DNA of 64,000 nucleotides. Source: Closterium sp. NIES-65 (lineage: Eukaryota > Streptophyta > Zygnematophyceae > Desmidiales > Closteriaceae). Position numbers and translations under genes: made by a program. This document shows, piece after piece, positions 40,245-63,573 of this stretch; position 1 is the first letter of the stretch; each line of letters begins with the position of its first letter. The stretch lies in NCBI GenBank assembly GCA_948144175.1, contig CANXME010002568.1, positions 1,046,001 to 1,110,000 of the forward strand, given 5' to 3'. The notes beneath the pieces were generated by a model, which saw only the letters and a program-made list of their open reading frames with translations, was not told the origin of the DNA and did no database searches.

Positions 40245-43200
40245 TTACTTATAACCGGCACCGCTCTCACCCGCATACGAGTTGTCAGATCCTTCTGCAT
40301 AGCTAGGCTCGTTCATTGGCATCTGGCCCTCGCCCTCCCCACCTGCTGGGTATGCGACTGGGACAGCTGAAGCCTTGTACAATCTGGCGTGGGGAAGACA
40401 ATAGAGGGGATAAGAATGAGTGGAAGGGATTCAGTTGCAGTGATGGAGGAGTAACTAACACTCAGGTGATATGATGATTTTTGTTCATGTTTGTGTATGT
40501 GATGTGCAGTGAGATAGTTGTGTGAGGGAGCTGGAAATAAACAACTACGGCTTATTACTCAAGCACTCGCTATCTCACCTCTCCCACCATCTGAACTCCC
40601 TGGGAATTCCCACACCCCCTTTCTCTTTCTTCCCCCTTCACCCCCTTCTTCCACCCTCTCCCCCCCTCCCCCTCCACTCTGCCCCCAGCCACCTCCAACC
40701 CCATCCCCCAGTCCCAAACCCAACTGCCCATCCTTTCCCCCAGGCCTTACCCCTCACTTTTTGAGGCGCCTCAAAAATAGACCCACCCTTTCCCCCAAGT
40801 CTTACCCCTCAACTTCGGCGTCGCTGAGTTTGTCACCGAGCCGGACGGCTCGGAAGACGTAGATAGGCATGGAGAGGGCCTGCATCATGCAGGCGATGGT
40901 GATGACCAGGAAGCCAATCCACAGCATCTGGAAATTGGTTATCATCGCCTGTGCCTCCGACATTGCAAACTGGGTGGGGCACAATGGGAAGGGGAGGCAG
41001 GGGAGTTGGGATATGGGAATTAAGGGGGACTCGTGAGTATCGTAAGGGGACTCGTGAGTATCGTAAGGGGACTCGTGAGTATCGTAAGGGGACTCGTGAG
41101 TATCGTAAGGGGACTCGTGAGTATCGTAAGGGGACTCGTGAGTATCGTAAGGGGACTCGTGAGTATCGTAAGGGGACTCGTGAGTATCGTAAGGGGACTC
41201 GTGAGTATCGTAAGGGGACTCGTGAGTATCGTAAGGGGACTCGTGAGTATCGTAAGGGGACTCGTGAGTATCGTAAGGGGACTCGTGAGTATCGTAAGGG
41301 GACTCGTGAGTATCGTAAGGGGACTCGTGAGTATCGTAAGGGGACTCGTGAGTATCGTAAGGGGACTCGTGAGTATCGTAAGGGGACTCGTGAGTATCGT
41401 AAGGGGACTCGTGAGTATCGTAAGGGACTCGTGAGTATCGTAAGGGGACTCGTGAGTATCGTAAGGGGACTCGTGAGTATCGTAAGGGGACTCGTGAGTA
41501 TCGTAAGGGGACTCGTGAGTATCGTAAGGGGACTCGTGAGTATCGTAAGGGGACTCGTGAGTATCGTAAGGGGACTCGTGAGTATCGTAAGGGGACTCGT
41601 GAGTATCGTAAGGGGACTCGTGAGTATCGTAAGGGGACTCGTGAGTATCGTAAGGGGACTCGTGAGTATCGTAAGGGGACTCGTGAGTATCGTAAGGGGA
41701 CTCGTGAGTATCGTAAGGGGACTCGTGAGTATCGTAAGGGGACTCGTGAGTATCGTAAGGGGACTCGTGAGTATCGTAAAGGCACCGGTGATGCCTGGAC
41801 TAGGAAGCCGACCCAGAGCATCTAGAAGAGAAATTGGTCACCATTGCCTGTGCCTCGGATTTTGCTAACTGGGGGGACACAGTGGGGGGAAGGGGGGTTG
41901 AGGGGGCATTGGGGGGCGAAACAGCACGCTGATTTCCCATGAAGGAACCAGAAAGCCAACCCATCTGGAAGTTGGAGGTGACTCTTGAGTCGACTCAAAA
42001 GTCAACCTGAGTTCCCATGAAGGAACCATAATTCCAACCCATCTGGAAGTTGGAGGTGACTCTTGAGTCGACTCAAAAAGTCAGCCTGAGTTCCCATGAA
42101 GGAACCATAATTCCAACCATGGTGGCGACGTAGGAGCAGTCGACAAGGGTGAGCACGTTGGGGATGGTGGATTCGAGCAGCGCGAGCGTCTGAGCCGTGG
42201 CTGTGAGGCCGTTCATCACCACCTCTGGCACCGCACAGCACCGCACTGCACCACACAGCACTGTACTGCACCGCACCGCACCGCACTGCATATCTTCTCA
42301 CCTTGGCAATGTTGGCGACATAGGAGCAGTCCACAAGGGTAAGCACGTTGGGGATGGTGGATTCGAGCAGCGCGAGCGTCTGAGCCATGGCTGTGAGGCC
42401 GTTCATCACCACCTCTGGCACCGCACAGCACCGCACTGCACTGCACCGCACCGCACCGCACTGCATATCTTCTCACCTTGGCAATGTTGGCGACATAGGA
42501 GCAGTCGACAAGGGTAAGCACGTTGGGGATGGTGGATTCGAGCAGCGCGAGCGTCTGTGCCGTGGCTGTGAGGCCGTTCATCACCACCTCTGGCACCGCA
42601 CAGCACCGCACTGCACTGCACCGCACCGCACCGCACTGCATATCTTCTCACCTTGGCAATGTTGGCGACATAGGAGCAGTCGACAAGGGTAAGCACGTTG
42701 GGGATGGTGGATTCGAGCAGCGCGAGCGTCTGTGCCGTGGCTGTGAGGCCGTTCATCACCACCTCTGGCACCGCACAGCACCGCACTGCACTGCACCGCA
42801 CCGCACCGCACTGCATATCTTCTCACCTTGGCAATGTTGGCGACATAGGAGCAGTCCACAAGGGTAAGCACGTTGGGGATGGTGGATTCGAGCAGCACGA
42901 GCGTCTGAGCCGTGGCTGTGAGGCCGTTCATCACCACCTCTGGCACCGCACAGCACCGCACTGCACCACACAGCACTGTACTGCACCGCACCGCACCGCA
43001 CTGCATATCTTCTCACCTTGGCAATGTTGGCGACATAGGAGCAGTCCACAAGGGTAAGCACGTTGGGGATGGTGGATTCGAGCAGCGCGAGCGTCTGAGC
43101 CGTGGCTGTGAGGCCGTTCATCACCACCTCTGGCACCGCACAGCACCGCACTGCACTGCACCGCACCGCACCGCACTGCATATCTTCTCACCTTGGCAAT

Positions 43201-46200
43201 GTTGGCGACATAGGAGCAGTCGACAAGGGTAAGCACGTTGGGGATGGTGGATTCGAGCAGCGCGAGCGTCTGTGCCGTGGCTGTGAGGCCGTTCATCACC
43301 ACCTCTGGCACCGCACAGCACCGCACTGCACCACACAGCACTGCACTGCACCGCACCGCACCGCACTGCATATCTTCTCACCTTGGCAATGTTGGCGACA
43401 TAGGAGCAGTCCACAAGGGTAAGCACGTTGGGGATGGTGGATTCGAGCAGCGCGAGCGTCTGTGCCGTGGCTGTGAGGTCTTTCCTCACCACCTCAGGCA
43501 CCAGCACTGAGCTGCCGGCTGTCGTCATGAGCATCTGCAGGGCGGGGGGTGGGGGGAATGAGGACAAGGGGGTAGCGAGGTGAGGACAATGTGTGTTTTA
43601 CTGACTCTGAAGGCCGTGAGGTCCTTCCATACCACCTCAGGCACCAACACTGAGCTGCCGGCTGTCGTCATGAGCATCTGCAGGGCGGGAGGAGAGGGTG
43701 GAAAAAGGGGGAGGGAGTTGTGGCCGACTCATAAGGCTGTGAGGTCGTTCCGTACCACCTCGGGCACCAGAGCAGAGCTGCCAGCTGTCGTCATAAGCAT
43801 CTGCGGGAGGAGGGGATGGAGGAAGGAAGACAGTGGGAAAGGGGAGGTGACAGGAGGAAAGGGGGTGTTGTGTGCAAAGGGGGGAGTTGTGACGAAAAGG
43901 CGGAGTTATGTCTGAATCACAAGGCTGTGAGGTCATTCCGTACCACCTCGAGCACCAGAGCAGAGCTGCCAGCTGTCGTGATAAGCATCTGGAGGGCGGG
44001 GGGAGAGAGGGGGAAACACAGGGAGGAAGGGGGAAATGGGGAGGAGGGTACAGGAGGCAAAGGGGGAGTTGTGTTGGACTCAAAAGGCTGTGAGGCCGTT
44101 CCTCACCACCTCTGGCACCAAAGCAGAGCTCCAGCTGTCGTCATAAGCATCTGCAGGGCGGGAGGAGGGAGACAGTGGTAAGGGAGGCAGGGGCAAGGGG
44201 ACAGGAGGAGGGGGACAGAGGGAGGGGGACAGGTGGAGGGGGACAAGGGGAGGGGGACAGGCAGGAGCAAGGGGCGTTACAGGGTGTTTTTGAGAATTCT
44301 CAAAAACACCGTGCAGCAAGGGGCGTTACAAACAATGTGCTGTTTGTGACGTGTGTGGCCGACTCAAAAGGCTGTGAGAGCACGTGCCACGACAGCACAC
44401 ATGCCACATCAGCACGCAGCACACATGCCACATCAGCACGCAGCACACATGCCACATCAGCACGCAGCACACATGCCACATCAGCACGCAGCACACATGC
44501 CACATCAGCACGCAGCACACATGCCACATCAGCACGCAGCACACATGCCACATCAGCACACCAGCCACTCACGTTGACAAAATCCGGGAAGAGGATGGTG
44601 CCGTCAACACAGAGGTTTGTGTCGCGCGTGAAATTGGGCGCCGGGCCGTACGGCACACAGATGCCGCCCGGCACACGGAGAATCTTAAATAGCTGTGGTG
44701 GGAAGGGGGGGGAGGGAGGGAGGGAGCAAGGGGAGCAGTGACAAGGTTGAGTAACTTTGGAGGGAGGAAGGAGGAAAGTAGGGAGAGTGCTTTTGAGAAT
44801 TCTCAAAAACACCCTGCAGCATCAGATGAGGAGGGAGAGGAGGGCTGTATGGCACACGGATGCAGCCCGGCACACCAAGAATCTTAAATAGCTGTGGTGC
44901 AAGGGAGAAGGGGAGAGGAGGGGGAGAGGGAGGAGGGTGATATAGCTGTAGTAGGAGGCAGGATAATAGGGAGAGGCTGGCCGTATGGCACACAGATGCC
45001 GCCCGGCACACCGAGAATCTTAAATAGCTGTGGTGGGGAAGGCGGGACGGGAAGGGGGGAAAGAGAGCTGTAGAGGGAGGCAGGAGAATAGAGCGAGGGA
45101 GGCCGTAGGGCACACAGATGCTGCCAGGAACACCAAGGAAGTTAAATAACTGTGGGAGGGTGGTGGGGGTTGGGGAAGGAGGGGGAAGTAAGCTGCGGAG
45201 GGAGGCAGGATAATAGGGAGAGGCAGGATAATAGGGAGAGGCAGGAGGCAGGATAATAGAGAGAAGAGGGCTGTACGGTACACAGATGCCGCCCGGAACA
45301 CCAAGAATCGTAAATAGCTGTGGTGGGAGGCGGTGGGGGGAGGGAGGGAAGGGAAGCAGGGGGAGCATTGAGAAGGCTAAATAGCTGTGGTGCGAGGCGG
45401 GGGAGTAGGAGGGGCGGGCCGTAGGGCACACAGATGCCACCCGCAACATTAAGAAGCTTCAATAGCTGTGGCGGGGAAGGCGGCAGTGGGAAAGGGAGGG
45501 GAAGAGAGGGAATTGGGGGAGCAGGCAGAGCAGGCAGAGCAGTGACAAGGTTAAATAGCCATGGTGGTGGGAGACAAGGTGATAAGGAAAGGCGGGCCGC
45601 AGGGCACACAGTTGCTGCAAGCAATGACTGAACTCACTCTAGGTGCGTTGCCAACCTACTGAGCCTATTGTTGAGTCGACTCAAAAATGACTGCACTCAC
45701 TCTAGGTGCGTTGCCAACCTACTGAGCCTATTGTTGAGTCGACTCAAAAATGACTGAACTCACTCTAGGTGCGTTGCCAACCTACTGAGCCTATTGTTGA
45801 GTCGACTCAAAAATGACTGAACTCACTCTAGGTGCGTTGCCAACAACCGAGCTGCTGGCAGTGGTGAGCATGATGGCAGTGGTGAGGACAGTGGTGGTGG
45901 TGCAGCATGGGTGCAGCATGGGTGCAGCATGGGTGCAGCATGGGTGCAGCATGGGTGCAGCATGGGTGCAGCATGGGTGCAGCATGGGTGCGGCATGGGT
46001 GCAGCATGGGTGCAGCATGGGTGCAGCATGGGTGCGGCATGGGTGCAGCATGGGTGCAGCATGGGTGCAGCATGGGTGCAGCATGGGCGCAGCATGGGTG
46101 CAGCATGGGTGCAGCATGGGTGCAGCATGGGTGCAGCATGGGTGCAGCATGGGTGCGGCATGCAGCCTTTGAGTCAGTCACCTCAAGAATCACGGTGAGC

Positions 46201-49200
46201 ACGGTGGCAGGGTAGGGCAGGGTAGTAGGAGGGGCGGGCAGGGTAGTAGGAGGGGCGGGCAGGGTAGTAGGAGGGGCGGGCAGGGTAGTAGGAGGGGCGG
46301 GCAGGGTAGTAGGAGGGGCGGGCAGGGTAGTAGGAGGGGCGGGCAGGGTAGTAGGAGGGGCGGGCAGGGTAGTAGGAGGGGCGGGCAGGGTAGTAGGAGG
46401 GGCGGGCAGGGTAGTAGGAGGGGCGGGCAGGGTAGTAGGAGGGGCGGGCAGGGTAGTAGGAGGGGCGGGCAGGGTAGTAGGAGGGGCGGGCAGGGTAGTA
46501 GGAGGGGCGGGCAGGGTAGTAGGAGGGGCGGGCAGGGTAGTAGGAGGGGCGGGCAGGGTAGTAGGAGGGGCGGGCAGGGTAGTAGGAGGGGCGGGCCGCA
46601 GGGCACACAGTTGGTGCAAGCAATGACTGCACTGCACTGCACTGCACTCACATACCCTAGGTGCGTTGCTGACCACAGAGCTGTTGGCCGTGGTGAGCAC
46701 GGCAGCAGCGGTGCAACGCACATCCTGTGACACTCGCCTCAAAAGGTCACCCCAATCATCGGCAGACAGCAGTCGTAAGCACCCCAATGACTGCACCCCA
46801 ATGACTGCACCCCAATGACTGCACCCCAATGACTGCACCCCAATGACTGCACTCACTCACCCTGGGAGCGTTGGTGACAACTGAGGTGTTGGCAGTGGTG
46901 AGCACGGTGGCAGCGGTGTAACGCGCGTAGCGAGTGGCATTCAAGAGCTTCTCGTTGGGGATGCAATGAAGGTATTTGTCCATGGCGCTGCTGATTGTAG
47001 GGGACTGCTGCACCTGCTCCAACGCCACACTGGTGTCACCGTTGACCCTGGTCGTGGGGGGATTGGGATTGGGGGATGGAGGGAGGGAGGGAGTGGAGTT
47101 GAGGGGGAGGGCAGTCTATACCCCCCTGGGAATGCAGTGGAGGTATTTGTCCATGGCTACGTGCTGACGTCTCAAAACCCTTGTTCAAACATGGGGATGC
47201 AGTAGAGGTATTTGTCCTTGGCGCTGCTGATGGTGGGGGATTGCTGCACCTGCTCCAATGCGACACTTGTGTCGCCGTTTACCCTGGTTGGGGGGTTTGG
47301 GTTGGGTTGGGAGTAGGGATTGGTGGGGGAAAAGGAGGGAAGACGAGGGAGGGAGCAGAGCAGGCACTTGTTACTGCTGGGGATGCAGTGAAGGTATTTG
47401 TCCATGGTGCTGTTGATGGTGGGCGACTGCTCCATCCAGTGCCTTTTGAGTCGACTGCGCCAGTGCCACGCTTGTGTCGCCATGAAGTGAAGTGAAGGTA
47501 TTTGTCCTGGAAGAGGACACCAGTTAGGCGGCATTGAGATGACACGTGGCAGCAGCAACCAACTTAGGATTGAACACCAGTGGTCGTTGTTGGAACTACT
47601 TACAGGAAAAAAATGCTCTTGTGTAAAAACGTTCGGTGGTAGCTAGGAAGTGCGTGCGAGCAAGAGTCTTACAGGTATGCAAGTGATTTCGATATAAGAG
47701 TCTTACAGGTATGCAAGTGATTTCGATATAAGAGTCTAACAGGTATGCAAGTGATTTCGATATAAGAGTCTTACAGGTATGCAAGTGATTTCGATATAAG
47801 AGTCTTACAGGTATGCAAGTGATTTCGATATAAGAGTCTTACAGGTATGCAAGTGATTTCGATATAAGAGTCTTACAGGTATGCAATCAGTAAACCAGCT
47901 GTCATGCACCAAGTCAAGAAAACCACCACCCAGATTAGAGTGAGAAAGCTGTGGAGGGGGATAGACAAAGGGCAAGGGTACGAACATAGCCAGCGTTGAT
48001 GATTGGTACTGTGAGAGTAGAATGATGAGTCGGAGGGGCGTTACAATGTGATGTGTGGAAGAAAGCTAAAATCGTTCCGAATCAAAGCCAGGTACATGTT
48101 CATCAACACTATACCAATTCTTCAAACAGCAATGGAAATAACATAAATAACAACTTGGAATGCAAGGAAACTTCTTTAAGCATGCAAGAGCACTCACATG
48201 TTGGAAGCCACGACCCATTTGAGAAGAGAAAACACTGCGAGGAGAACCATACATAAGAGGGTGTAAGACAAGAAAGGGGAAAAAAAAAAAAAAAAGACGA
48301 ATCACATCACAAATGGCGGTACATGCATGGCAGATACACGAGCGCGAAGAGATTGGCAAGAGTCGCAACCCTAGCACTAGCACATACAACAAGGATGTGC
48401 TTCACAATTGCTTTTGAAAAAAAATGTTGCCGCAGCAGGTCGCGCCTTGTTTCTAAAAAAATATCTTTTGGACTCTCGTCTCGTTCATACCCTCGCACAT
48501 GCTCTGGGATCGCTTCTCAAAAACTTATTCCAAGAACATTGCGAGTGAGAGGGCCGAGGGCGCAAGGCCACAGCAATGACTTTTGAGGCGCCTCAAAAGC
48601 CAAGGGCGCAAGGCAACAGCAATGAATGAATAAAACGAGAAGTAAATAATTTGTCAACAAATTGTAATGAGTGATACAATTATTGCTTGCAATAAAATGC
48701 TAGCCAGAAAGGTGAGCAGTGGCAGGGGATTGTAGAGGTTGGACAGAAAAATATCATTGACGTGATTATCGAGGAGAGGAGAAGGGGACAGAGTTAGGGA
48801 AGAACAGAGGAGGCAGAAAGGAGCTCACGTAAGGCGAGGATGCAAAGGGCAGTGATAACGCATCCAATGACATAGAAGGTAATGGAACTGAAGTGGGGGG
48901 GAGGGGGGGGGGAGGGGAGAAGGTGGGGAAAGAGATGGATGGGGGTAGGGGGGAGAGGCAGGCATATGCCAAGTCAACTTTAAGTGAAGACAGCATCCTT
49001 TCAAAAGGGTGGTGATGACGCATCCAATGACATAGAAGGTAATTGAACTAAGTGGGGGGGAGGGACAGGCACAGACGGTCGGGAACGGGGTAGAGAGGGG
49101 AGGTGGGGAAGAAGGGAATGGTAGGCGAGCGGAGGGGCGCACACCGCACCACACTGCGCGCAAACAGCACAGCAGTTACACCACACCGCACCGTACTCCA

Positions 49201-51863: not shown

Positions 51864-53185
51864 GCCCTCCATCAATTTCCAGCGTATTAGTATAGTCTCT
51901 TTGTTATCTAAAGCGCTCGTAAGACGTTGAAGCCACTTGAGATGGTTAAAAGCGCTTTTAGGACGTGACGTAGGGCCCTCGTGCAATGAGACGCGGGGGT
52001 GGTGATTCGAGGCGTCTCAGCAAGCAACCTCTGTGCTTGTCCGCCTAATGCGCTACTGCAGCTAGAGTAGGCATTCACGCGTCAGAAATGGAGCTCCGTC
52101 TCCGTAACTAGCGGCGCCTAGGTAGCGGCACAACCGCTCTCTAGAACTAAAAGCGGCACAACCACAATGAAAGGCAGCCCAGCAACCACCACGTTGGCGC
52201 TCAAGCCATGCTATACGGCAACAGAACACCACCCAAAAGAGGAACTTTAGTCATAACAGAGTGAGACACTACAAGACAGTTAATTATTCGGTGGCGGGTG
52301 ACGGTGAAAAACGGAGGGGAAGACCAGGAGGCTGAGGCGAGGACGAAAGGCCCGGTGTATATCGCACACCACACATTCGTGCTGTATCACTAACCTACCT
52401 AACCACTCTAAATAATAAATTGACCGCTGTATATAAAACTTCGAGCCGCACTCAGACGAACGTGTTGAACACGTTCTCAAGGGTCAGGTGCAAAGTTTGA
52501 ACGTACACATGATGCCCAGCCACTGCACGCGAATTTGCCCTGCACCGGATGGAAACGCTGCACCCGAGGTCTTTTCCCCAGCCTGTTGCACCCACGATAC
52601 AAGCGCGTCGCGTGGTTATGGACCAATAATAACGAACAGACTGAAATCAAACTGAAGAGACCGAAGTCAAATTGTCAACGAATAAGGTTACAGATCCTTA
52701 ATATAAGCACCTCCGAATCCTTTTTAGATAGCTGCGAAATGACGAAACTTATGCGAAATGCTCGATACAGCTTATACGCCCTCTTCACAAGGCAACCGGG
52801 AGGGGCTCAAACAGGCATCAATTGTAGGTGCCCCTTTTGCCTGCCATGGAGTTGCTGGTTTATCGCGATTCGCAAACGGTGTCCCGATCGGCCAAATTTG
52901 TCGTGTAGGTGTCTTATTTATCAACATAAATAACGCTTTTTCACCGTGTTAAACCGTCCTGGAACACGAAGCATGAACTGTAATTGTGCAAGTAGACGTC
53001 AAGGTCTGGAACGAAGAACCACAGTCAGACAAGCTGAGTTTGTTCATATTCCATACTAAATAGCCCAGCATGCATATTAACATTTGAAACATTTTTATAC
53101 TCAGTACAGCAATCAAACTTAACCAGCAAATCCCATATTTTATGAGAGCTAAGGTCATACACAAAACAGAACATACACTGCATTT
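51864..53185. other. Intergenic region between genes A and B
   Basis: About 1.3 kb of ordinary-composition DNA between the assumed start of A and the duplicated end of B. It holds no recognisable gene; the open frame 52535-52933 has no family motif and no counterpart elsewhere. A decayed GAGGCGTCTC palindrome lies at about 52008-52018. The promoter of gene A should be here or in the first 60 bases of the gene, but no clear TATA box is seen. Confidence 0.5.
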
Positions 53186-53250
53186 TTACTTGTAACCGGC
53201 ACCGCTTTTGCCTGCACATGAGCTGCTGCTATAAGGTTGCTCCGAGCCAA
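53186..53250 (-). repeat. Duplicate of the last coding segment of gene B, with own stop
   Basis: The minus strand reads GSEQPYSSSSCAGKSGAGYK and a TAA at 53186-53188. The first nine residues repeat the end of gene B exon 12 and the last seven match the C-terminus of gene A. It lies about 55 bp downstream of the gene B stop and is not translated by the predicted transcript. Confidence 0.8.
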
Positions 53251-53303
53251 TAGGGCCCTAGATACCGGCAGCCCTATCTTTACATGGCAGCAAACGAGAG
53301 CAA

Positions 53304-56300
53304 TTACTTGTAGCTTTCGTCCGCGTATGCGCTGCTGCTATAAGGTTGCTCCGAGCCTACATGTGAGTTGGTCGAGCCTTCTGTAAAGCTGGGTTCGTTC
53401 CCTTGTGTATGGTCCTCACCCTCACCCCCTGCAGGGTATGCAACTGGAACAGCTGAAGCCTTGTAGAGCCTGGCATGCAGACGACAATAAAGGGGATGGG
53501 AATGGGTGGGAGGCATGAAGCTATAGTGACAGAGGTAGTATGTGTCTTTATGCATGTCCCATGGATTTCTGTTCAGGTACCGTGTGTATGATGTGCAGTG
53601 GAATAGCTATTTAGGAGCTGGAAATACATGAAGGGCTTATTACTCCTGCACTCACTATCCCAACTCTTCCCCCATCCCCCCACCCCATCCCCCCTCCCCC
53701 CATACCCCCACCCCATCTCCCTAATCCCATCCCCCTAACCCCATCCCCCACCGCTCCCTATCACCTCACCACTGTCCCTTGTTTTCCACACCCTACCCAA
53801 CACCCGTGCACTCCACACCCTGTCATCCCCAATATCAGGCAATATAGAACTTGCAGGGGTAGGGACGATAATTGAGGCATCTCAAAAGACTCTCCCAGAC
53901 CCCATCCTCCACCCATGCCCTCCATACCCTGACCATCATCCCCAACCCTTTCCCAGGAAACTCCCAAGTCTTACCCCTCGGCTTCGTCGTCGCCGAGCCT
54001 GTGGCCGATCCTGACGGCTCGGAAGACGTAGATAGGCATGGAGAGGGCCTGCATCATGCAGGCGATGGTGATGACCAGGAAGCCAATCCACAGCATCTGG
54101 AAATCCGTTACCATCGCCTGAACCTCGCCCAATGCAAACTGCCCAATGAGAGAGATGAGAGAGAGGAGGGAGGAGGGAGGAGGGAGAGTATGAAGGTGAG
54201 TGAACAGAAGCATATCCATTCATCCATGCGTTTGAGATGACCAGGAAGCCAATCCAGAGCATCTGGAAATGCGTCACCATCGCCTGAACCTCGCCCAATG
54301 CAAAAAGCAAGGCTGCAAGACCACAGCCGTACCTGGGAGATTCCAGAGACATAGGAGCAGTTGGTGAGAAAGAGGACGTTGGGGATGGTGGATGTTTTCT
54401 CGCACACGCGTTCAGAGCCCACGCACGGGAGCATGGGAGCATGGGAGCATGGGAGCATGGGAGCATGGGAGCATGGGAGCATGGGAGCATGGGAGCATGG
54501 GAGCATGGGAGCATGGGAGCATGGGAGCATGGGAGCATGGGAGCATGGGAGTGGGCCTGGCCTTACCAGGGCGATTTCAGAGACATAGGAGCAGTTGGCG
54601 AGAAAGAGGACGTTAGGAATGGTGGATGTTTTCTCGCACACGAGCCTCTAAAACACTCACACGGAAGCAAGGGGGAAGCTATACCTGGGCTATCTCGGCG
54701 ACAGAAGAGTGTTTTGAGACGTCTCAAAACAAGCAAGGGGGAAGCTATACCTGGGCTATCTCAGCGACAGAAGAGTGTTTTGAGACGTCTCAAAACAAGC
54801 AAGGGGGAAGCTATACCTGGGCTATCTCGGCGACGTAGGAGCAGTTGGCGAGAAAGAGGACGTTGGGGATGGTGGACTCGAGCAGAGAGAGCGTTGTGGC
54901 AGCAGCAGTGAGGTCGTTCTTTACCGCATCCGGCACAATCTCGCTGCTGTTGACCGTTCTTGCCAGTGCCTGGGGGGAGGGGCACGGGGAGAGGGGCACG
55001 GGAGAGGGGCATGGGGGAAGGGGCATGGGGGGGAGGGGTATGGGGGGAGGGGCATGGGGGGAGGGGCATGGGGTGAAGGGCACGGGGTGAGGGGCATGGG
55101 GGGAGGGGCATGGGGGGAGGGGCATGAGGGAAGGGGCACGGGGGGGAGGGGCACGGGGGGGAGGAGCACGGGGGAAGGTTTGCTACGACGAGACGAGGAT
55201 GAGGATGCTGGGGGTGGGGATGAGGATGCTGGGGGTGGGGATGAGGATGCTGGGGGTGGGGATGAGGATGCTGGGGGTGGGGATGAGGATGCTGGGGGTG
55301 GGGATGAGGAGCTGGGGGGGATGAGGATGCTGGGGGTGGAGATGAGGATGCTGGGGGTGGGGATGAGGATGCTGGGGGTGGGGATGAGGATGCTGGGGGT
55401 GGAGATGAGGATGCTGGGGGTGGAGATGAGGATGCTGGGGGTGATACCGCTCGACCGCTGCTGATACCTTTCTCGCCTCTAAGCACGCTTTCTACCAGCG
55501 GCTACGAAGTCGGGCTTACCCCTCTGATTTCCTTCTACCCATCTTCAGGAGCATTTTCTTTCGTCAACGACCTCTCCTTCTGGAGCAGACTGCTGCCCGC
55601 CACGCACACAAACTTGAAACTCCCCCCGAACGCGGCCCCCTAGTCTTGAAGACACTGTTCACACCTTTGACCGGTCGTCTCAGGCTGGGGGTGCTTTTGA
55701 GGCGCCTCAAAAGTCGTCTCCTGTCTCGCGGTTTTTATGTGGGGAGAATTATAATTGCATGGAAGTGTGCGCGTAACCTTCAGCGGTTACTTGTAAGGGC
55801 GCGGTTACCAAAGTCACTCGCCAATGTTGTCGAAGAAGTTCCCGAAGGCTGACTTGGCACCTTGAATTTGTTTCATTGCCTAGTTGGCGAACCCCTTTCC
55901 TAGTTGGATTCTGGGTAGTCGGGTTTCTTGTATGTAGATCTCGAGGGTAATCTAGCTACTTTAGCTGCTACCAGACTCTCTGTTTCTGAGTTCCGGATTG
56001 TGCTGTACTGATGAAGGCGTGATTGGGTTCGCCCATCCGCCGAAACTAGTTTACGCAAGGAGGCTTTTCGGAAGCTAAGGGTTTTTCAGATCTGCGTTTT
56101 TTTTTTTTCACCAGTTTTCACTGTTTGTTCCTTTGCTTAAGCGTCCTCTCTGCTACTGCAGCCCTTCGAAACATGAGTCAGGGTGACCCCTGGGATACCG
56201 GATTTACCACGTGAAAAAAACAGTGTTTTGAGATGTCTCAACAGTCGCTACTCACATCCACGAAACTCGGGAAGGTGATGGTCTTGGTGGTGCTGTCATC

Positions 56301-59300
56301 GCAGTAGCTCGCAATGTTTGAGGCACCTCAAACACGTTACATCACAGACGCTACATGAGCAAACACACACTACTCACATCCACCAAACTCGGGAAGGTGA
56401 TGGTCTTGGTGGTGCTGTCAGCGCAGTAGCTCGCATTGCGTGTGTAGTCTGGAGGCGGGCCGTACGGCACACAGAGGCCGCCCGGAACACCAAGGAGGTC
56501 AAACAGCTGTGGTGGGGGGGAAAGGGGGGAGAGAGGGGAAGCAGGGGGGGCATTGACAGGGCGGCGGGCCGTACGGCACACAGAGGCAGGGGAGCAGGGA
56601 AAGAAAGGGGAGTTGGGGGGGGAGAGGGAGAAGGGAGGACAGGGAGAGAGAGGAGGGGGGTGGGGGAGGGGGGGGGGCACTTCAGAGCCTCTTGAGGAGC
56701 TTCAAAAAGGAGGACGGGAGAAATGGGGACTCTTGAGCGACTCTTGAGCGACTCTTGAGGAAATCTTGAGCGACGGTGTAGCGGACTGTTTTTGAGTTTT
56801 GAAACGTCTCAGAAGGATTTTGAGGCGCCTCAGAAGCTTCAAAAAGGAGGACGGGAGAAAGGGCGCCTCTCGAGCAGCTCTCGAGCGGCTCTTGAGTGAC
56901 GGTGTAGCGGCTGATTTAGCACTGCACTCACCTTAGGAGCGTTGGTGGTGACAGACGTGTTGGCGACGGTGAGCGCGGTGGCAGCAGTGTAGCGCGCGTA
57001 GCGAGTGGTATTGGCAATCTGGTCGCTGGGGATGCAGTGCAGGTACTTGTCCATGGCGCTGACCATGGTGGGGGACTGCTGCACCTCTTCCAGCGCCACG
57101 TTGGTATCACCATTCACCCTGGGGTTGAAGGGAGGGAGTGGAGATGAGTGGAAGAGCGGCCTAGAGGCTACACCATGCTGGCGATGCAGTGCAGGTATTG
57201 GTCCATGGCGCTGACCGATGGTGGGTGGGGGACTGCTGCACCTGCTCCAATGCCACGTTGGTGTCTCCATTCACCCTGGAGAGGTTGGTGATTGTGAGGT
57301 TGGGGATTGGGGATTGGGTTTTGAGGTTAATCCGTGATACATGCAACAATATATGTCAACCCCCAAAGAATAAAGAGAACATGATGCCCAAGAATTTGGT
57401 AGTACAGGCTTGAAAATCGTGGGGCTCACAAGAATGTGTGTACATATGATATTTTAGAGGTTTACGGAAAATAAAGGCAAATGGATATGGTGTGATGAAG
57501 GGCTTAACAAAGTGAATCAACAAAGGCATACAGGCGAACCGTATATGACACTTACAGATATGCAATAATTAAACCGGCTGTAGTGCACCAAGTAAAGAAG
57601 ACCACCACCCATATTATAGTGACGATGCTGTTAATGGGGATTGGAAGAACAAGGATTCTGGGCATGATGAGTGTGGAGACAATTGCGAGAAAATGGAGAG
57701 TTTAGGGAGTACACTTAGTCTTAGATATAAAAGAGCTGGACTTAAAAAACCAGACATTTTTCCACATCATTCAAAGCACTGGCAAAGCAAATTCAATTAG
57801 CTGATCATATGACAAAAACGCATTCACAACATGAGTGCGCGAAATCGGACACAATAAATATGGTGACATATCTGTTGTACTAGGCTTTCTAGCACGTATG
57901 CAATGGCCCATCGGACGCAACGCAAAGTAAAGAACGCATTGAAGGGTTTTTGAACACTCACACATTGGATGCGACGAACACTCACACATTGGATGCGACG
58001 GCCCATTTGAGAAGAGAAAACACTGGCAGGGAAAAGAGGGGATGTTAGACAAGGTGAAAGTGGGAGGTTGATGGGAGGAAGGCATAGGGGTGGGAAGCAG
58101 GGAGGGGAGAGGGGGGGAGCGTTGAGTGGGTGAAGGAAATGGCGGTGATTCGGGCGTTGAGTTGGGGAAGGAAATGGCGGTGATTCGAGCGTTGAGTGGG
58201 GGAAGGAAATGGCGGTGATTCGAGCGTTGAATGGGGGAAGGAAATGGCGGGGGCTGTGGAGATTACTAATTCGTAACTGTGCGATTCAGAGATTTGAAAT
58301 TCCTCTAGGCTCAAAAGGACTGCTGCTGTGACGGCAAGGATTATGAAGCAGTGGCGAGGGAAACAGTGTCACGGAGCAACGGAGCAGTTATGGTTTGATT
58401 GTGATTGCAACGGCAGTTATTTCGAATTGCGTATGATACGAAGCAGATGGGGGGATGCAGGAAGAGAGGAGGGAAGGAAGAGATGAGATGAGAGGTAAGA
58501 GAAGAGGAGGGAGGAAAGTGAAGGGAGAAAAGTTAGGGGGCAGAGAAGGAAGGGGGCAGAGAAGAGAGGAGCAAGGGAGGGAGGGAGGGAGGGAGGGAGG
58601 GAGGGAGGGAGGGAGGGAGGGAGGGAGGGAGGGAGGGAGGGAAAGTGGGAGGGAGGGAGGGAGGGTGCAAGGGAGAGAGGTAGGGAGAGAGGGAGGGATG
58701 GAGGGAGGGAGGAAGGGAGGGAGGGAGGCAGGGACGCACAGAGGGCTAAGATGCAGAGAGCGGTGATGATACAGCCTAAGATGGAGAATGTCAGCGTGCT
58801 GAAGGAAGGAGGGAGGGGAGTGGGGAAGAGCAGGGAGGGATGTGACCAGGGAGGGCAGAACACATGCATGGGAGAACACATGCATGGGAGAACACATGCA
58901 TGGGAGAACACATGCATGGGAGAACACATGCATGGGAGAACACATGCATGGGAGAACACATGCATGGGAGAACACATGCATGGGAGAACACATGCATGGG
59001 AGAACGAAAAGAGGGGTGAAGATGGAGAAGGTTAGTGTGCTGACGGAAGGAGGGAGGGGAGTGGGGAAGAGCAGGAAGGGCTTTTGAGACATCTCAACAG
59101 ACACAAAGAGCGGTGAGTGATGATGCAGCCTGGGATGGAGAAGGTGAGCGTGCTGACGGAAAGAGGGGAGGAGGAGGGGGGTGGGGGGCATGGAAAGGGC
59201 GTGGAAGAGGCAGTCTCAGAGGGCGTGGAAGAGGCAGTCTTAGTGTGCTTTAAGAGGGTTGGGCAGGAGGGAAGCGAAGAGGCGAGGAATGTTTTTTTTG

Positions 59301-62300
59301 GCGCGATAAAACTCATCTCGTCTAATGCGATTTACACATAACCGTGCAGAACCATGCATGACCGTGCATGACCGTGCATGACCGTGCATGACCGTGCATG
59401 ACCGTGCATGACCGTGCATGACCGTGCATGACCGTGCATGACCGTGCATGACCATGCATGACCATGCATGACCGTGCATGACCGTGCATGACCGTGCATG
59501 ACCGTGCATGACCGTGCATGACCGTGCATGACCGTGCATGACCGTGCATGACCGTGCATGACCGTGCATGACCATGCATGACCGTGCATGACCGTGCATG
59601 ACCGTGCAGAAGCAGAGCCCATCATGCAGAAGGTCATGGAGGTCGTACTCACAGTACAACCGCTGCACTGCACAGCACTGCACCACACCACACCGCACCC
59701 CACATCACCACACCCCATCGCACAGCACAGCACCGCACCGCACTGCACTCACACGGCGCGCAACGCGTCGTTGATGATGACGATGCCATCCGGATCCGCC
59801 GTCTTGGCCTGCAAGTCGTACTCACAGTTCACAGCTGCCGCACTGCACCGCACCCCACACACACCCACTGCATTGGACGGCACCGCACCGCACAGCACTG
59901 AACAGCACCGCACCACACCGCACTGCACTCATCGTACCACATTGCACACCACACACAACCGCGTCGCACCCCACTGCACCACACTGCACTCACACTACTC
60001 GCAGCGCGTCATTGATGATGACGATGCCATCCGCCGTCTTGGCCTCCAGCTCGGTGGCCGTCTGATTGGCCACCCTTGCTTTGCTCTGTATGTCCGCCTT
60101 CTTAGCAGCTGTAAGGAGGGAGAAAGGAGCGAGAAAGGGGTGAGAAAGGAGGGAGAACGAAGGGAGAAAGGAGGAGAAAGGAATGAGAAAGGAGTGATAA
60201 AGGGCTGAGAAAGGAGTGAGAAAGGAGTGAGAAAGGAGTGAGAAAGGAGTGAGAAAGGGGTGAGAAAGGAGTGAGAAAGGAGTGAGAAAGGAGTGAGAAA
60301 GGAGTGAGAAAGGAGTGAGAAAGGAGGGAGAATTGGGGGACGGCCAGGCACTGTCTTGGCCTGCAGCCCCGTGGCTGTCTCGGTTTGTCACTTTTGACTT
60401 GCTCGAAGTGTCCGCCTTCTTAGTGGGGAGGGAGGGAGCGGGAGGGGGGAAATCAACGGTCCCCGTGAGGAGATCCATATAACCATGTGCACCCGGTGCA
60501 ATACTTGTATAATATGCATGCAGCATGTATGTATGTATATGTACATCTATATAAATATATATTTGGTTCTTTCTTAACAAATTAAAGAGTTGCTCTACAA
60601 AGAGCATGCCGTACAAACATTCAGACAAACAAACACACACAAGCGAGAGAATCAAACACATGAGGGACGACGGTGCTGGCGATGTTGATGGAGGTGCTGG
60701 TCTCGACGATGTGGGTCAGGTTAAAGACGACTACAACGGTGTGTGTGATCAATTCCCTCTGTGACAAAAGCCTGTCACCTTGTGCACTGGTTGCTACAAG
60801 GAACCTAGAAAGCACGCACGTGGGACAACGGTGTTGGCGATGTTGATGGAGGCGCTGGTCTCAACGATGCGGGAGAGGTTGAAGACGACGCTGGCCGTGA
60901 AGTCAACCGTCTCGGTGATAAAGTCCGTCACCTTGTGCACTCGGTTCCTCAGCTGCACGCCCCCTGCGATCATCACAGAGAATCCGACCCTGGGGGATTA
61001 GGGAGTGCGAAGGGAGGCGGACGGAGGGGAAAGGGATGGGGAAGGGAGGTGAAAGGGAAGGGGAAAGGGATGGGGAAGGGAGGTGAAAGGGAAGGGGAAA
61101 GGGATGGGGAAGGGAGGTGAAAGGGAAGGGGAAAGGGATGGGGAAGGGAGGTGAAAGGGAAGGGGAAAGGGATGGGGAAGGGAGGTGAAAGGGAAGGGGA
61201 AGGGAGGGGGAAGGGAGGGGGAATGGAAGCAAAAGGGAGAAAGGGAGAAGTCAACGGTTTTAGTGATAAAGCCCGTCACCTTGTGCACTCGGTTCCTCAG
61301 CTGCACGCCTCCTGCCAGCATCACGGAGAATCCCACCTTAGTGGGTCAAAGAAAGGCGGGGAGAGGGAGGGGGGAGGTAGGGGGGAAGGGTGGGGGAACA
61401 GAAGGAAAAGGGAGAAAGGGTGAAGTTTCTGCGATATAGTCCGTGACCTTGTGCACTCGGTTCCTCAGATGCACACCCCCTGCTAGCATCGCAGAGAATG
61501 CGCTAGGGGAGCAAGGAAGGGGGCGGGGAGGGAGGGGGAAGAGGGGATTGTTGCAGAAAGGAGTCGTGGACAGGAAGAAAGAGACCAAAACAGAGAGAGC
61601 GCCAGCGATGCAATAACAAGAGAGGAAAACAGAGGAAAACTGTTGCAATAACAAGAGAGGGAAACAGAGGGAAACTGTTGCAATAACAAGAGAGGGAAAC
61701 AGAGGAAAACTGTTGAAATAACAAGAGAGGGAAACAGAGGAAAACTGTTGCAATAACAAGAGAGGAAACCACAGATACCTCTGTTGAAATCACTTTCGTG
61801 AATTTTCAGAACTGATTTCCAACATAGAAAACAAAGCTACCTCCACACCACAGTGCTTTGAGACGCCTCAGAACGAAGCGAGGAAAACCATCCTTGTTCC
61901 CTCTCACACCGTTGCTCACTTCGAAGTCTGGCTCAGAAGAAGTCACCCTGACGGAACTCACTCACAGCACGGCGACAATCCCCAGGCGAACTAGAAAAAA
62001 ATCGAGAGGGACGTAGAGAGAGAATCTTTTTTGAGTCGACTCAAAACTAGAGCGACGTAGAGAGAGAATCTTTTCCCGTTACAAGCGTTTTCGACTCACA
62101 GCACGGCGACAATCCCGAGGAGCATGAAGCCGAGCGGCACCCAGAGGTCCTTGTTGGTGTACTTGGCGTATGCAGGGTCCCTCATTTCGGTCCACTTGTC
62201 GCGACAACACAGGCAGGTGAGCAGGGAAAATCCGAGAATCCCGAGGCCCAGGATGAGCCAGAGTAGGCCGAGCAGCGGCGCATATATTACTGACCACATG

Positions 62301-63573
62301 ACCGACTGTGGAGGGGGTAGGGCGGGGAGGGAGGGACGATGAAAGGGGGAGTGTAAGGGCGGGGAGAGAGGGAGAAGAGGGAGAGAGAGAAAACGAACAT
62401 TTCGAGGCCCAGGATGAGCCAGGGAGTGGGGAGGGAGAGAAGGGTGGGGAAGGATTGAAGGGCGGGGAGAGCGAGGAGAGCGGGGAGAGCGGGGAGGGAG
62501 GAGTGGGAGCGGGAATCCGAGGATCCCAAGACCCAGCATGAGCCACAGCAAGTGAGTAACATGAGCTACCTGGGTTATTCATACCTTGAGACAAAACTAC
62601 TGCACCGCTCGGCCTACGTGGATTTGGTGAGTCTTATCCACATCCGGACAACACGTACCGCCCATGTTACTGTGTAGCAGTTAAGCCCGTCGAGGGGGTT
62701 CTTTCTTGCATTTCTTTGGGTTATGTGAATCATCTGGGTTACAAACATAGCGTTGGTTACTCATTCTTTTCGCGAAACACGTCGCCAAACACGCCGCGCG
62801 AAACACGTACCGCCCAGTAGTCCTTGCTGCTGGGTTTCCAGCCTTCCGTTGAGGGGGTTCTTGTGACATCTGGGTTATGCGAGTCATCTGGGTTACATAA
62901 GTTACGAGGGTTGTGAATCGCGCAAGTTGTGGGTTACGAGTCATTCGTTCGCGAAACACGTACAGCCCAGTAGTCCTTGCTGCTGGGGTCCCACCCGCCC
63001 GTGTAGTAGTTAAGCCCGTCGAGGGGACTCTTGCACTGCTTGGGTTATGTGGGTTACACAAGTACGTGAAATGATATTAAATCTTTCGAACAACGCACGT
63101 ACCGCCCAGTAGTCCTTGCTGCTGGGGTTCCACCCGCCCGTGTAGTAGTTAAGGCCGTCGAGGGGGTTCTTGCGACGCGTGCGGTTCGGGGCGAGCGTCA
63201 CGTTCTGCAGAGTTTGCAGCGCGCGGCGATTCACGCGACTCGAGCGGTCGGCGTGACTCAAACGGTCGGCGTGCTTCAAAAGGTCGGCGTGAGTGTAACG
63301 GGAGTGCTCGAAAAGCGCTACGCGAGGCGCTTCTGCCAGAACGTTCTGAATAAGCGTGTGATAATAACGAGCGGTCTCGGGAAGGTCGTCATAGTCCATG
63401 GGATCGTTCGGTGATGCTGCCACGTCAGCGACCGAGAACGACCTACTAATGCTGCTCAATCTCCCCGCGTCTCGCGCCATCGGATCCGCGTCGGTCGTGG
63501 TCAAACGCGGCGCGATAGCTACACTATAGATGGCAAGGAGGAGGAGGGGATATATATTCCTATGGCTCGCCAT
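53304..63573 (-). CDS. Gene B: five-pass membrane protein, plant Tweety-like (PTHR31414-type), 12 exons
   Basis: Exons: 63103-63573, 62100-62305, 60820-60989, 59994-60108, 58740-58798, 57986-58022, 57556-57627, 56932-57118, 56378-56506, 54817-54969, 53975-54138, 53304-53469; 642 residues; all introns GT-AG with the same phases as gene A. Start at ATG 63573, followed by a signal peptide (PLLLLAIYSVAIAP). Then a luminal domain with QNVTLAPNRTRRKNPLDGL and YTGGWNPSSKDYWA, TM1 (159-191) ending in LLTCLCCRDKW, TM2 (210-237), glycosylated loop (VANQTATELEAKTADG), TM3 (321-340), TM4 (353-377, IIWVVVFFTWCTTAGLIIAY), a large Cys-bearing loop (GDTNVALEEVQQSP, CIPSD, VPGGLCVPYGP, LFLANCSYVAEI), TM5 (546-571, FQMLWIGFLVITIACMM) and a cytosolic tail ending YADESYK. 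Topology and the GDT-VALE / YTGGW signatures match plant Tweety-like membrane proteins; the function is not established. Closest relative is gene A, 1.4 kb downstream. Confidence 0.82.
54240..54660 (-). repeat. Extra exon 10/11 fragments and 8-bp minisatellite in gene B intron 10
   Basis: From right to left: STIPNVLFLANCSYVSEIA-L/GTAAGG (54630-54565), an 8-bp array GCATGGGA of about 15 units (54430-54552), NVLFLTNCSYVSGISQ/GTACGG (54390-54325), and a copy of the exon 11 start, FALGEVQAMVTHFQMLWIGFLVIS (54305-54235). The exon copies retain splice-site words but the exon 11 copy has no donor. Confidence 0.85.
54661..54816 (-). repeat. 66-bp direct repeat: exon 10 donor end plus palindrome, gene B
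   Basis: Two units (palindromes at 54710-54731 and 54776-54797, 66 bp apart) each contain the minus-strand exon end GCCGAGATAGCCCAG or its near twin, the donor GTATAGC, and TGTTTTGAGACGTCTCAAAA plus CA. They stand directly downstream of the real exon 10 donor (54816). Confidence 0.9.
54970..55450. repeat. G-rich 16-bp-like repeats and 21-bp minisatellite, intron 9 of gene B
   Basis: 54970-55185 holds GGGGCATGGGGGGA-type units. 55190-55445 holds about 11 units of GAGGATGCTGGGGGTGGGGA plus T. Strong strand asymmetry (G on the plus strand). The ORFs across it are artefacts. Confidence 0.88.
55451..56240. other. Intron 9 of gene B, remaining part
   Basis: About 800 bp of mixed-composition DNA with no gene. 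It contains a perfect palindrome (55694-55713, CTTTTGAGGCGCCTCAAAAG) and a T run (56098-56109). 55740-56090 has no match elsewhere in the window. Confidence 0.5.
55694..55713. repeat. Perfect 20-bp palindrome, core GGCGCC
   Basis: CTTTTGAGGCGCCTCAAAAG, identical to the one at 48580-48599 in gene A although the flanks differ. Confidence 0.95.
56241..56335 (-). repeat. Donor-side copy of gene B exon 9
   Basis: Minus strand repeats SYCDDSTTKTITFPSFVD followed by GTGAGTAG, a second, slightly altered end of exon 9 (the real one is 56378). A decayed palindrome (GTTTGAGGCACCTCAAAC) marks its other edge at 56315-56332. Confidence 0.88.
56507..56931. other. Intron 8 of gene B
   Basis: G/A-rich sequence with one more fragment of the exon 9 start (GGGCCGTACGGCACACAGAGG at 56566-56586), two decayed palindromes (56797-56814 and 56821-56832) and a tandem ACTCTTGAGCG repeat (56737-56775). 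Confidence 0.6.
57119..57555 (-). other. Intron 7 of gene B with a partial exon 8 copy
   Basis: 57170-57285 repeats the acceptor side of exon 8 (VNGDTNVALEQVQQSP, then a shifted SAPWTNTC). The remainder (57300-57555) is A/T-richer DNA with nothing recognised. Confidence 0.7.
57957..57985 (-). repeat. Donor-side duplicate of gene B exon 6
   Basis: CGTCGCATCCAATGTGTGAG occurs twice in a row, so the last ten or so exon bases and the donor are doubled (26-bp unit). Confidence 0.85.
58050..58260. repeat. 35-38 bp tandem repeat, intron 5 of gene B
   Basis: GGGGAAGGAAATGGCGGTGA plus TTCGAGCGTTGAGT, four units, followed by unique sequence. Confidence 0.8.
58570..58735. repeat. GGGA tetranucleotide repeat, intron 5 of gene B
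   Basis: Nearly pure GGGA repeat on the plus strand (58575-58640) with related GGGAGAGA sequence to the exon 5 donor at 58739. In the transcript this is a long C/T tract immediately after the donor, an odd place for it. Confidence 0.85.
58799..59170 (-). repeat. Two exon 5 copies and a 16-bp minisatellite, gene B intron 4
   Basis: Minus strand at about 59160-59100 and 59050-59020 repeats CAGCACGCTGAC... (TLTFSIPGCIIT and TLTFSIF). The 16-bp array GAACACATGCATGGGA of nine units lies at 58858-59003. A decayed palindrome is at 59081-59098. Confidence 0.85.
59340..59610. repeat. 10-bp minisatellite (ACCGTGCATG), about 26 units, intron 4 of gene B
   Basis: Near-perfect array with a few ACCATGCATG variants. 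Each unit contains the 6-bp palindrome TGCA(T)/ATGCAT. The ORFs across it are artefacts. Confidence 0.92.
59755..59990 (-). repeat. Donor-side copy of gene B exon 4 and GCACCG-type repeats
   Basis: 59815-59755 repeats LQAKTADPDGIVIINDALRAV followed by GTGTGAGTG, a second end of exon 4 with a two-codon insertion. 59825-59990 is CACCGCAC-type low-complexity sequence resembling that between the exon 10 copies of gene A. Confidence 0.82.
60109..60440. repeat. 11-bp repeat (GTGAGAAAGGA) and a decayed exon 4 copy, intron 3 of gene B
   Basis: 60125-60330 is an array of about 18 units. 60350-60440 on the minus strand is a decayed exon 4 copy (KKADTSSKSKVTN..., QDSAWP). Confidence 0.8.
60441..60819. 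other. Intron 3 of gene B, distal part, with an exon 3 copy
   Basis: 60660-60770 repeats the end of exon 3 on the minus strand (VVVFNLTHIVETSTSINIASTVVP). 60441-60655 is A/T-rich DNA with TATGTATG words and no gene. Confidence 0.7.
60990..61500 (-). repeat. Two acceptor-side copies of gene B exon 3 and 34-bp minisatellite
   Basis: Minus strand at 61336-61250 and 61500-61425 repeats GFSVMLAGGVQLRNRVHKVTGFI and FSAMLAGGVHLRNRVHKVTDYI, then runs into GAAAGGG-type sequence. Between them and exon 3 lies a 34-bp G/A repeat of about five units (61028-61205). Confidence 0.85.
61600..61775. repeat. 35-bp minisatellite, five units, intron 2 of gene B
   Basis: Unit GTTGCAATAACAAGAGAGGG plus AAACAGAGGAAAACT. 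Followed by unique sequence with a decayed palindrome at 61857-61874. Confidence 0.88.
62029..62046. repeat. Perfect 18-bp palindrome, core GTCGAC
   Basis: TTTTGAGTCGACTCAAAA, 54 bp after the exon 2 donor of gene B. It sits inside a 40-bp direct repeat (GACGTAGAGAGAGAATCTTT on both sides). Confidence 0.95.
62395..62560 (-). repeat. Fragments of gene B exon 2
   Basis: Minus-strand fragments LLWLMLGLGILGFPLP (about 62552-62505) and WLILGLEMFVFSLS (62427-62385), internal pieces of the exon 2 membrane segment, upstream of the real exon. Confidence 0.8.
62655..63060 (-). repeat. Three extra donor-side ends of gene B exon 1
   Basis: The real exon 1 end is at 63103 (DYWA/GTACGTG). Copies follow at 63042-62965 (SPLDGLNYYTGGWDPSSKDYWA/GTACGTG), 62850-62798 (shortened, ...SSKDYWA/GTACGTG) and 62710-62660 (NPLDGLNCYTVTWA/GTACGTG). 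Spacer sequence repeats GGGTTACAT/AGGTTA-like words. Confidence 0.88.

Follow-up and report, generated by a model that had tools for sequence, protein, structure and literature searches.

Genes A and B and the partial copies of their exons

The window analysed here is a stretch of 64,000 nucleotides (contig CANXME010002568.1, positions 1,046,001 to 1,110,000, assembly GCA_948144175.1) from the genome of Closterium sp. NIES-65 (874 Mb, 2400 contigs), and it holds two paralogous minus-strand genes, A and B, whose introns contain partial copies of the adjoining exons (Table 1). Both genes consist of 12 exons separated by GT-AG introns, and in the two models the phase is identical at each border and exons 2-8, 10 and 11 agree in length. 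Neither translation contains an internal stop, in agreement with an earlier note on this DNA, made from the letters alone, which had stated that the authentic exons stay in frame. An annotated Closterium sp. NIES-65 protein, P0001, fuses B and A; it matches B except for the first 31 residues and the C-terminal end (the end of exon 12), and it matches the exons of A from exon 2 onward, a few residues apart, leaving the start codon of A unsupported by P0001. Public Closterium gene models may, as in this case, fuse neighbouring genes. A search of 5.8 billion sequences, of which the best 7997 candidates were scored, returned 12 proteins, all from Closterium, and a Pfam search with protein B gave no family above the cut-off.

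Each exon with its flanks was searched against its own gene (E<=1e-3), and direct partial copies were found to adjoin 18 of the 24 exons (A2-A5, A8-A11, B1-B5 and B8-B12). The E-values run from just below 1e-3 down to 7.5e-138, so that the weakest single rows may be due to chance while the set as a whole is beyond it. The exon-edge copies described in the earlier note are thus real and its list largely stands, with the addition of copies it had missed at A11, B11, B12, the donors of B2 and B3 and the acceptor of B9; its copy numbers were inflated by arrays at A7, A9 and A10. No copies were returned at this threshold for A1, A6, A7, A12, B6 and B7, and the A7 and B6 donor edges that the note had listed are present outside these hits. 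Its statement that every copy includes an exon edge is true of most of them, which also keep the splice site, but exon-internal copies without an edge occur in A3 (50007, 50105), A8 (47127, 47378), B1 (62672), B2 (62384, 62514) and B4 (60343). Rows covering the whole of B exon 5 passed the E filter through simple repeats and were dropped from the join, dinucleotide and identity counts given below.

Local hits in the window are direct in 116 cases and inverted in nine, all nine of the latter being low-complexity stretches, simple arrays or palindromes, and inverted duplication is unsupported as a mode. Outside short-period arrays, 31 duplicate families were recognised, with an exon overlap of at least 12 bases in 22; an exon edge is included in 16 families, namely 15 of these 22 together with the A7 array. 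Short arrays occupy 25% of the 18,028 intron bases and duplicate families 36%, the remaining 39% being neither. Exon-side breakpoints are mostly unlike between A and B, which bears out the proposal that many events in the two paralogs were independent; the acceptor copies of exon 8 have near-common breakpoints (92 and 94 exon bases), so this event may predate the A/B split. The introns of gene A also contain very homogeneous minisatellites at 41025-41779, 45899-46162 and 46215-46596 (units of 21, 11 and 21 bp; 97-100% matches). Short in-frame repeats in B exon 1 (window 63230-63310, HADLLKHADRLSHADRSS) suggest that small duplications arise in coding sequence too, if the frame is kept.

A palindrome between the copies, in the window and beyond

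Many joins of the duplications carry a feature that is absent from the earlier note, an 18-bp palindrome of the form TTTTGAG-NNNN-CTCAAAA. Exact palindromes number 30,327 across the genome, as compared with 4 for a reversed-pattern control, and the window contains 23 at up to 2 mismatches, as compared with 0, 0, 0, 0 and 1 in five Markov shuffles. All 23 lie within 40759-62029 and are intronic in A or B by the exon coordinates. Window positions 1-40000, where large minisatellites accompany open reading frames that look like those of long terminal repeat (LTR) retroelements, hold no such palindrome, and a young age of that region may be the reason. Among 51 exact copies from 195 kb on other contigs, the four central bases are TCGA in 22, ACGT in 13, GCGC in 10 and AATT in 2, and each of the four singleton cores lies one transition from one of these. 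Outer arms tend to follow the core and are partly specific to each of the four groups; the two arms of an insert often mirror each other, and the point at which they are cut varies. The copies examined come from contigs of 0.15-2.8 Mb, where they occupy either introns or the flanks of genes with introns, and viral contigs gave 0 matches to one 20-bp form of the palindrome. On contig C6, decayed GCGC palindromes form an array (L014:6185-6448), several of them 24 bp apart.

The association of palindromes with duplications in the window was assessed with a diagonal scan, since a BLAST pair search had placed only 3 of the 23 palindromes in inserts and had missed pairs such as 48553/48599, which were probably culled near the self diagonal. 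Of 13 near-adjacent direct duplications outside short arrays, seven have a palindrome between the copies. The inserts in question make up 3.0% of unmasked intronic starts and contain 7 of the 23 palindromes (binomial p = 3e-6), or 7 of 18 loci with arrays collapsed (p = 5e-7). An earlier flank test was uninformative (81 of 150 random controls scored at least 20, against 17 of the 23 palindromes) because its control was swamped by minisatellites, and its alignments alone were used.

These observations were further strengthened by a flank test on the 195 kb from other contigs, a sample selected for holding palindromes; the test required direct copies, each with 14 or more net matches, to abut the palindrome on both sides within 14 bases. 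Such copies flank 35 of the 50 exact palindromes tested (of 51) and 22 of 34 loci (neighbours within 150 bp collapsed). Random positions satisfy the rule in 11 of 120 cases in one control and in 22 of 300 in another (Fisher p <=1.5e-10 on loci). The flanking copies include exact target copies of 60, 28, 23 and 21 bp. A scan of the same sample that was blind to the palindrome found 79 local duplications, of which 24 carry a palindrome and 2 a half; five are tandem with an insert of up to 3 bases and 48 have another motif or none. Because the stretches were chosen for their palindromes, 24 of 79 is no genome average.

In clean single events the target measures about 16-70 bp with a continuous spread, and array units reach about 175 bp. 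The insert consists of TTTTGAG, usually TCGA, ACGT, GCGC or AATT, and CTCAAAA; the 23 clean inserts measure 19-38 bp and are nearly all arm with no interior, and some are longer, the few near 50 bp also being mostly arm. The copies are thus local and direct, and in many events a single palindromic insert lies between two copies of the target.

Filled and empty sites were sought in near-identical contig pairs of the genome (sister contigs; nine alignments, six pairs), which revealed nine length differences of at least 20 bp, two of them with a palindrome. In L029 a 20-bp target stands twice around a 24-bp insert and in L028 once, while L037 has 76 extra bases, comprising a target of about 53 bp and a palindrome, relative to L038, which holds the target once at 99.8% identity. 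Both comparisons fit an insertion accompanied by target duplication. The other seven differences comprise changes in array units (21, 42 and 88 bp), one 136-bp unit resembling those beside it, one repeat block of 294 bp and two differences of 21 bp, the first a segment and the second at the end of an alignment.

The earlier note had suggested, as one possibility, a locus-specific process, a view contradicted by the genome-wide palindromes and by edge copies in unrelated genes and in proteins predicted for other strains of Closterium. On our reading of the matches, 3 of 11 contig groups of the CCT chaperonin family (PF00118) have adjacent partial exon matches that overlap. One of these exons is accompanied by a donor-edge copy of 122 bp (96.7% identity) and, on the opposite side and judged by eye, by an acceptor-edge copy. 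In a contig C6 gene, presumably ion-channel-like, donor-edge peptides were seen by eye to recur, and a palindrome there stands between the copies of an exact 60-bp duplication; a Pfam search with three of its peptides gave no match. The predicted protein P0006 of strain Naga37s-1 (DNA not seen) reads FETSQN, as expected of a translated ACGT palindrome, between two exon-1 edge copies, and FENSQN, as expected of the AATT form, twice between exon-10 edge copies. Repeated exon-edge peptides were seen by eye in P0006, P0008, P0011 and P0012, whose gene models seem to take in the copies as coding sequence.

Table 1. Genes, partial exon copies and palindromes in the window (window positions; exons from high to low)
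Feature	Positions	Strand	Basis or remark
Gene A	40245..51872	-	Open frame, GT-AG; exons 51872-51354, 50928-50723, 50531-50362, 49370-49256, 48887-48829, 48234-48198, 47948-47877, 47047-46861, 44692-44573, 43534-43382, 40969-40806, 40383-40245
Gene B	53304..63573	-	Open frame, GT-AG; exons 63573-63103, 62305-62100, 60989-60820, 60108-59994, 58798-58740, 58022-57986, 57627-57556, 57118-56932, 56506-56378, 54969-54817, 54138-53975, 53469-53304
A exon 2, two acceptor-edge copies	51008..51244	-	Exon search
A exon 3, donor-edge and internal copies	49810..50331 (49810-49913, 49954-50001, 50007-50041, 50105-50143, 50264-50331)	-	Exon search
A exon 4, acceptor-edge copies	49421..49700	-	Exon search
A exon 5, acceptor-edge copy	49004..49064	-	Exon search
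A exon 7, donor edge inside 34-bp array, 6.6 units	47662..47886	-	Array detection
A exon 8, acceptor-half copies	47127..47434 (47127-47157, 47192-47288, 47378-47434)	-	Half-palindromes at 47171, 47444
A exon 8, donor-edge copies (45821-45884, 46621-46719) and palindrome-bearing 63-bp array (45623-45844)	45623..46719	-	Exon search, array detection
A exon 9, acceptor-edge copies, five main units	44842..45504	-	Exon search
A exon 10, four acceptor-edge copies	43612..44169	-	Half palindrome GACTCAAAA at exon-side join of outermost copy
A exon 10, tandem donor-edge copies, period ~175	42119..43381	-	Exon search, array detection
A exon 11, acceptor-edge copy	41798..41886	-	Exon search
A exon 11, donor-edge copy, palindrome at join	40727..40769	-	Exon search, duplication scan
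B exon 1, three donor-side copies (one without edge)	62672..63034	-	Exon search
B exon 2, donor-edge copy	61960..61986	-	Exon search
B exon 2, exon-internal copies	62384 and 62514	-	Exon search
B exon 3, two acceptor-edge copies, AG lost	61247..61546	-	Exon search
B exon 3, donor-edge copy, GT lost	60656..60788	-	Exon search
B exon 4, donor-edge copy	59665..59792	-	Exon search
B exon 4, exon-internal copy	60343..60423	-	Exon search
B exon 5, two acceptor-edge copies, decayed palindrome between	59019..59179	-	Exon search
B exon 6, short donor-edge copy	~57957..57985	-	By eye only
B exon 8, acceptor-edge copy	57177..57279	-	Exon search
B exon 9, donor-edge copy, palindrome at join	56240..56316	-	Exon search, duplication scan
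B exon 9, weak acceptor-edge copy, 63% identity, AG lost	56560..56678	-	Exon search
B exon 10, donor-edge copies, including 66-bp units with palindromes	54325..54775	-	Exon search, array detection
B exon 11, acceptor-half copy ending at exon edge	54220..54304	-	Exon search
B exon 12 end, copy past stop codon	53204..53248	-	Exon search
Palindrome, core GCGC	40759..40776
Palindromes at 41983 and 42061, core TCGA	41983..42078
Palindrome, core AATT	44288..44305		Between two exact 16-bp copies
Palindrome, core AATT	44791..44808		No clear flanking copy
Palindromes at 45669, 45732, 45795, core TCGA	45669..45812
Palindrome, core GCGC	48581..48598		Between 27-bp copies, intron only
Palindromes at 50170 and 50206	50170..50223		In 36-bp array
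Decayed palindrome	53870..53887		Weak flanking copy
Palindromes at 54712 and 54778, core ACGT	54712..54795
Palindrome, core GCGC	55695..55712		Flanking repeat 8 bp only
Decayed palindromes at 56226 and 56316	56226..56333		Flanking B exon 9 donor copy
Decayed palindromes at 56690, 56797, 56818	56690..56835
Decayed palindrome	59082..59099		Just past end (59080) of B exon 5 copy
Decayed palindrome	61856..61873		No flanking copy found
Palindrome, core TCGA	62029..62046		Between ~25-bp copies, intron only

Origin of the duplications

We consider it probable that the copies arise from a genome-wide, recent or still active process of local direct duplication, most plausibly the repair of staggered breaks, in the course of which a palindromic micro-insert is often captured. 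A staggered break would be opened by one nick in each strand, the two being offset by tens of bases, fill-in of both overhangs would double the target, and the ends would then be joined, often with a palindromic duplex caught between them; later slippage or unequal exchange could turn such units into arrays. Events of this kind would strike introns and exon-intron borders. Where one fell inside an exon, or spanned an entire exon, the protein would in most cases be altered and selection would remove the event. A single-edge event would leave the full exon and its own splice site intact and strand a partial exon in the intron, where it would decay like non-coding sequence, and edge-crossing copies would thus survive because the authentic splice site remains. 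Direct copies, a variable target, one insert and an empty site with a single copy are together what staggered-break fill-in with capture of a short duplex fits, and the features of small tandem duplication by such repair (direct, local, variable in length, with a single-copy empty site) are found here, the empty site in two cases.

Several points weigh against this reading. The staggered nicks are inferred and none was observed; both filled and empty cases come from one contig pair, C1757/C2261, and an empty site might equally result from deletion between copies, which leaves the direction of change likewise inferred. Flanking copies are lacking at 15 of the 50 sample palindromes, and the 48 duplications without the motif were given above. 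At the exon-side join, a palindrome cannot be recognised in most of the exon-edge copies of A and B: under one loose rule, and with A8/A10 cross-exon matches dropped, a motif or half motif stands at the exon side of 10 of 60 exon-copy rows and at the intron side of 6 of 60. The palindrome therefore directly accounts for a minority of the old exon copies, and their common origin with the clean events is extrapolated. Finally, exon-touching families (22 of the 31 larger ones) exceed the simulated edge share of 0.12-0.37, the youngest pairs (identity >=0.92) comprise 7 valid exon-touching and 4 intron-only cases, and the age test for detection bias, described below, is weak.

The source of the insert can be viewed in two ways: the copy number of the palindrome recalls a mobile micro-element, and its ragged ends and the varying length of the target recall a break filler. 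It is close to an even call, on the lower side, that Closterium nuclei harbour an undescribed insertion class of interior-free palindromic micro-elements, with the axis TTTTGAG-XYY'X'-CTCAAAA, four core groups, tens of thousands of copies and long, variable target duplications, which in this manner copy exon edges into introns. The more specific proposal, that the palindrome is mobile, a micro-element inserted by machinery of its own, and that the copies bearing it are unusually long target-site duplications, appears rather unlikely to us. The very high specific copy number, the four core groups with their arms and the filled/empty polymorphism speak for it, but the target duplications range from 16 to >60 bp, both insert ends are cut at variable points and 48 of the 79 duplications lack the palindrome. 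Neither a cognate transposase nor a longer parent element with palindrome ends was seen in 259 kb (the rest of the genome was not searched for it), in which unpaired TTTTGAG (23) and CTCAAAA (20) are near the approximately 16 expected by chance, with 93 TTTTGAG inside palindromes.

Less likely still is a duplication process directed to exon-intron junctions, for example through splicing- or transcription-linked breaks, which would be in keeping with the preferential capture of junctions proposed in the earlier note. The exon excess given above is its main evidence, 16 of the 31 families including an edge, and both paralogs are hit, often on unlike sides. In the simulation, tolerated segments with lengths approximated from the family list were placed uniformly, giving edge shares of 0.12-0.14 in the present introns, 0.16-0.19 without short arrays and 0.26-0.37 in residual introns, and the introns were probably shorter formerly, to judge by the part that is neither array nor duplicate. 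Against junction targeting, only 3 of the 13 near-adjacent events touch an authentic exon, and palindrome-tagged events also occur in plain intron (48553, 44266, 62005). Exon-anchored pairs remain detectable for longer because one side is constrained and divergence proceeds on the other side alone; consistent with this, intron-only pairs are somewhat younger (median identity 0.914 versus 0.872 for exon-touching pairs), with p 0.065 when the invalid A10 donor row is included and p 0.039 without this partly self-compared row and with values rounded to two decimals. Such slower decay accounts for only part of the exon excess. A moderate preference for junctions is compatible with the data, and targeting is not demonstrated.

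Two further explanations have little in their favour. Pre-existing palindromes that break and seed duplications would account for the location of palindromes at joins, but the two empty sites have no palindrome and one target copy each, and two-copy events have a single palindrome, not the pair expected if target and palindrome had been duplicated together, which makes this route very improbable. The selection for redundant or decoy splice sites suggested in the earlier note is equally improbable. GT or AG is retained in 42 of 46 edge-crossing alignments, as compared with about 35 expected from exon identity squared (pairs >3000 bp apart were dropped from the dinucleotide counts), but this figure is biased because alignments had to cross the edge to be counted. 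In the 24 copies whose alignment extends 20 nt or more beyond the edge, with the homogenised A10 donor array dropped, 43 of 48 splice-dinucleotide positions match (0.90; donors 12/12, acceptors 31/36), without clear excess over identities of 0.84 at exon positions 4-40, 0.87 at non-CpG exon positions and 0.89 at the last three exon bases. The spare splice sites need no selection to account for the data here. An assembly artefact, to which repeats are prone, can be set aside almost entirely, as the copies are diverged and hence no assembly duplicates, sister contigs are mostly concordant, the predicted proteins of other strains show the same copies, and the four published C. psl strain assemblies, a set that does not necessarily include this genome, are PacBio-based according to the accessible part of their description (PMC10407611).

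Relation to known systems and significance

The earlier note knew of no named system of this kind, and none was found that fits fully. The literature matches listed contain no report of Closterium palindromes of this kind or of exon-edge copies, most subscription papers being outside reach. Insertions in rice were reportedly treated by Vaughn and Bennetzen in 2014, going by the title as cited. The C. psl genome paper, in the text available to us, gives mean introns of 485-554 bp for its four strains, and the string "palindrom" is absent from its main text (PMC10407611). Small tandem duplications from staggered double-strand breaks, in which complementary overhangs are filled in by CST/Pol alpha-primase, resemble the present ones in being short, local and direct, but the accessible portion of that account describes no recurrent sequence-specific palindrome at the join, as is found here (PMC8355091). 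The constancy of the insert is the unusual feature relative to these known fill-in duplications.

By form, the nearest elements are the organelle palindromes of Volvox carteri, which are short (14-79 nt in the plastid), numerous, intergenic and intronic, and regarded as selfish; in the parts of the source at hand they are organellar, judged inert in the nucleus and described without flanking target duplication (PMC2670323), whereas the Closterium palindromes, to go by the copies examined, lie in nuclear-type genes, exceed 30,000 exact copies and are polymorphic between sister contigs. Miniature inverted-repeat transposable elements (MITEs) and the introner elements of Amoebophrya share inverted repeats, flanking direct repeats and an association with introns, but as far as the available text goes the MITE direct repeats measure 10-15 bp and the introners carry splice sites (PMC7789003), while the elements here are virtually without interior and their target copies measure 16 to >60 bp. 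Assignment to MITEs was rejected, as the inserts are nearly all arm in place of terminal inverted repeats around a non-coding interior, and the target length spreads continuously in place of a family-typical value. Assignment to introners was rejected for A and B, in which the 23 palindromes lie inside introns common to both paralogs, with 12 exons each. Fold-back templated insertions in yeast are likewise very short, inverted and joined by non-homologous end joining, and in the portion of the report at hand they are templated by the local end (PMC11724301), unlike the palindrome core, which is uniform genome-wide. A published tandem duplication that includes intron-exon structure is similar as well, but there, as its accessible account has it, a new intron was gained, while here both paralogs have 12 exons and the introns grow.

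These findings point to a concrete source of intron growth and stranded exon edges, one that is countable and apparently recent, in an alga closely related to land plants, and they tie it to a specific palindromic insert with more than 30,000 exact copies. They also bear on public gene models, four of which (P0006, P0008, P0011 and P0012) are affected, and they make testable both the formation of short tandem duplications with inserts and the tolerance of genes for many spare splice sites. In this single-celled alga, spare exon edges accumulate in the introns without making the genes unreadable.

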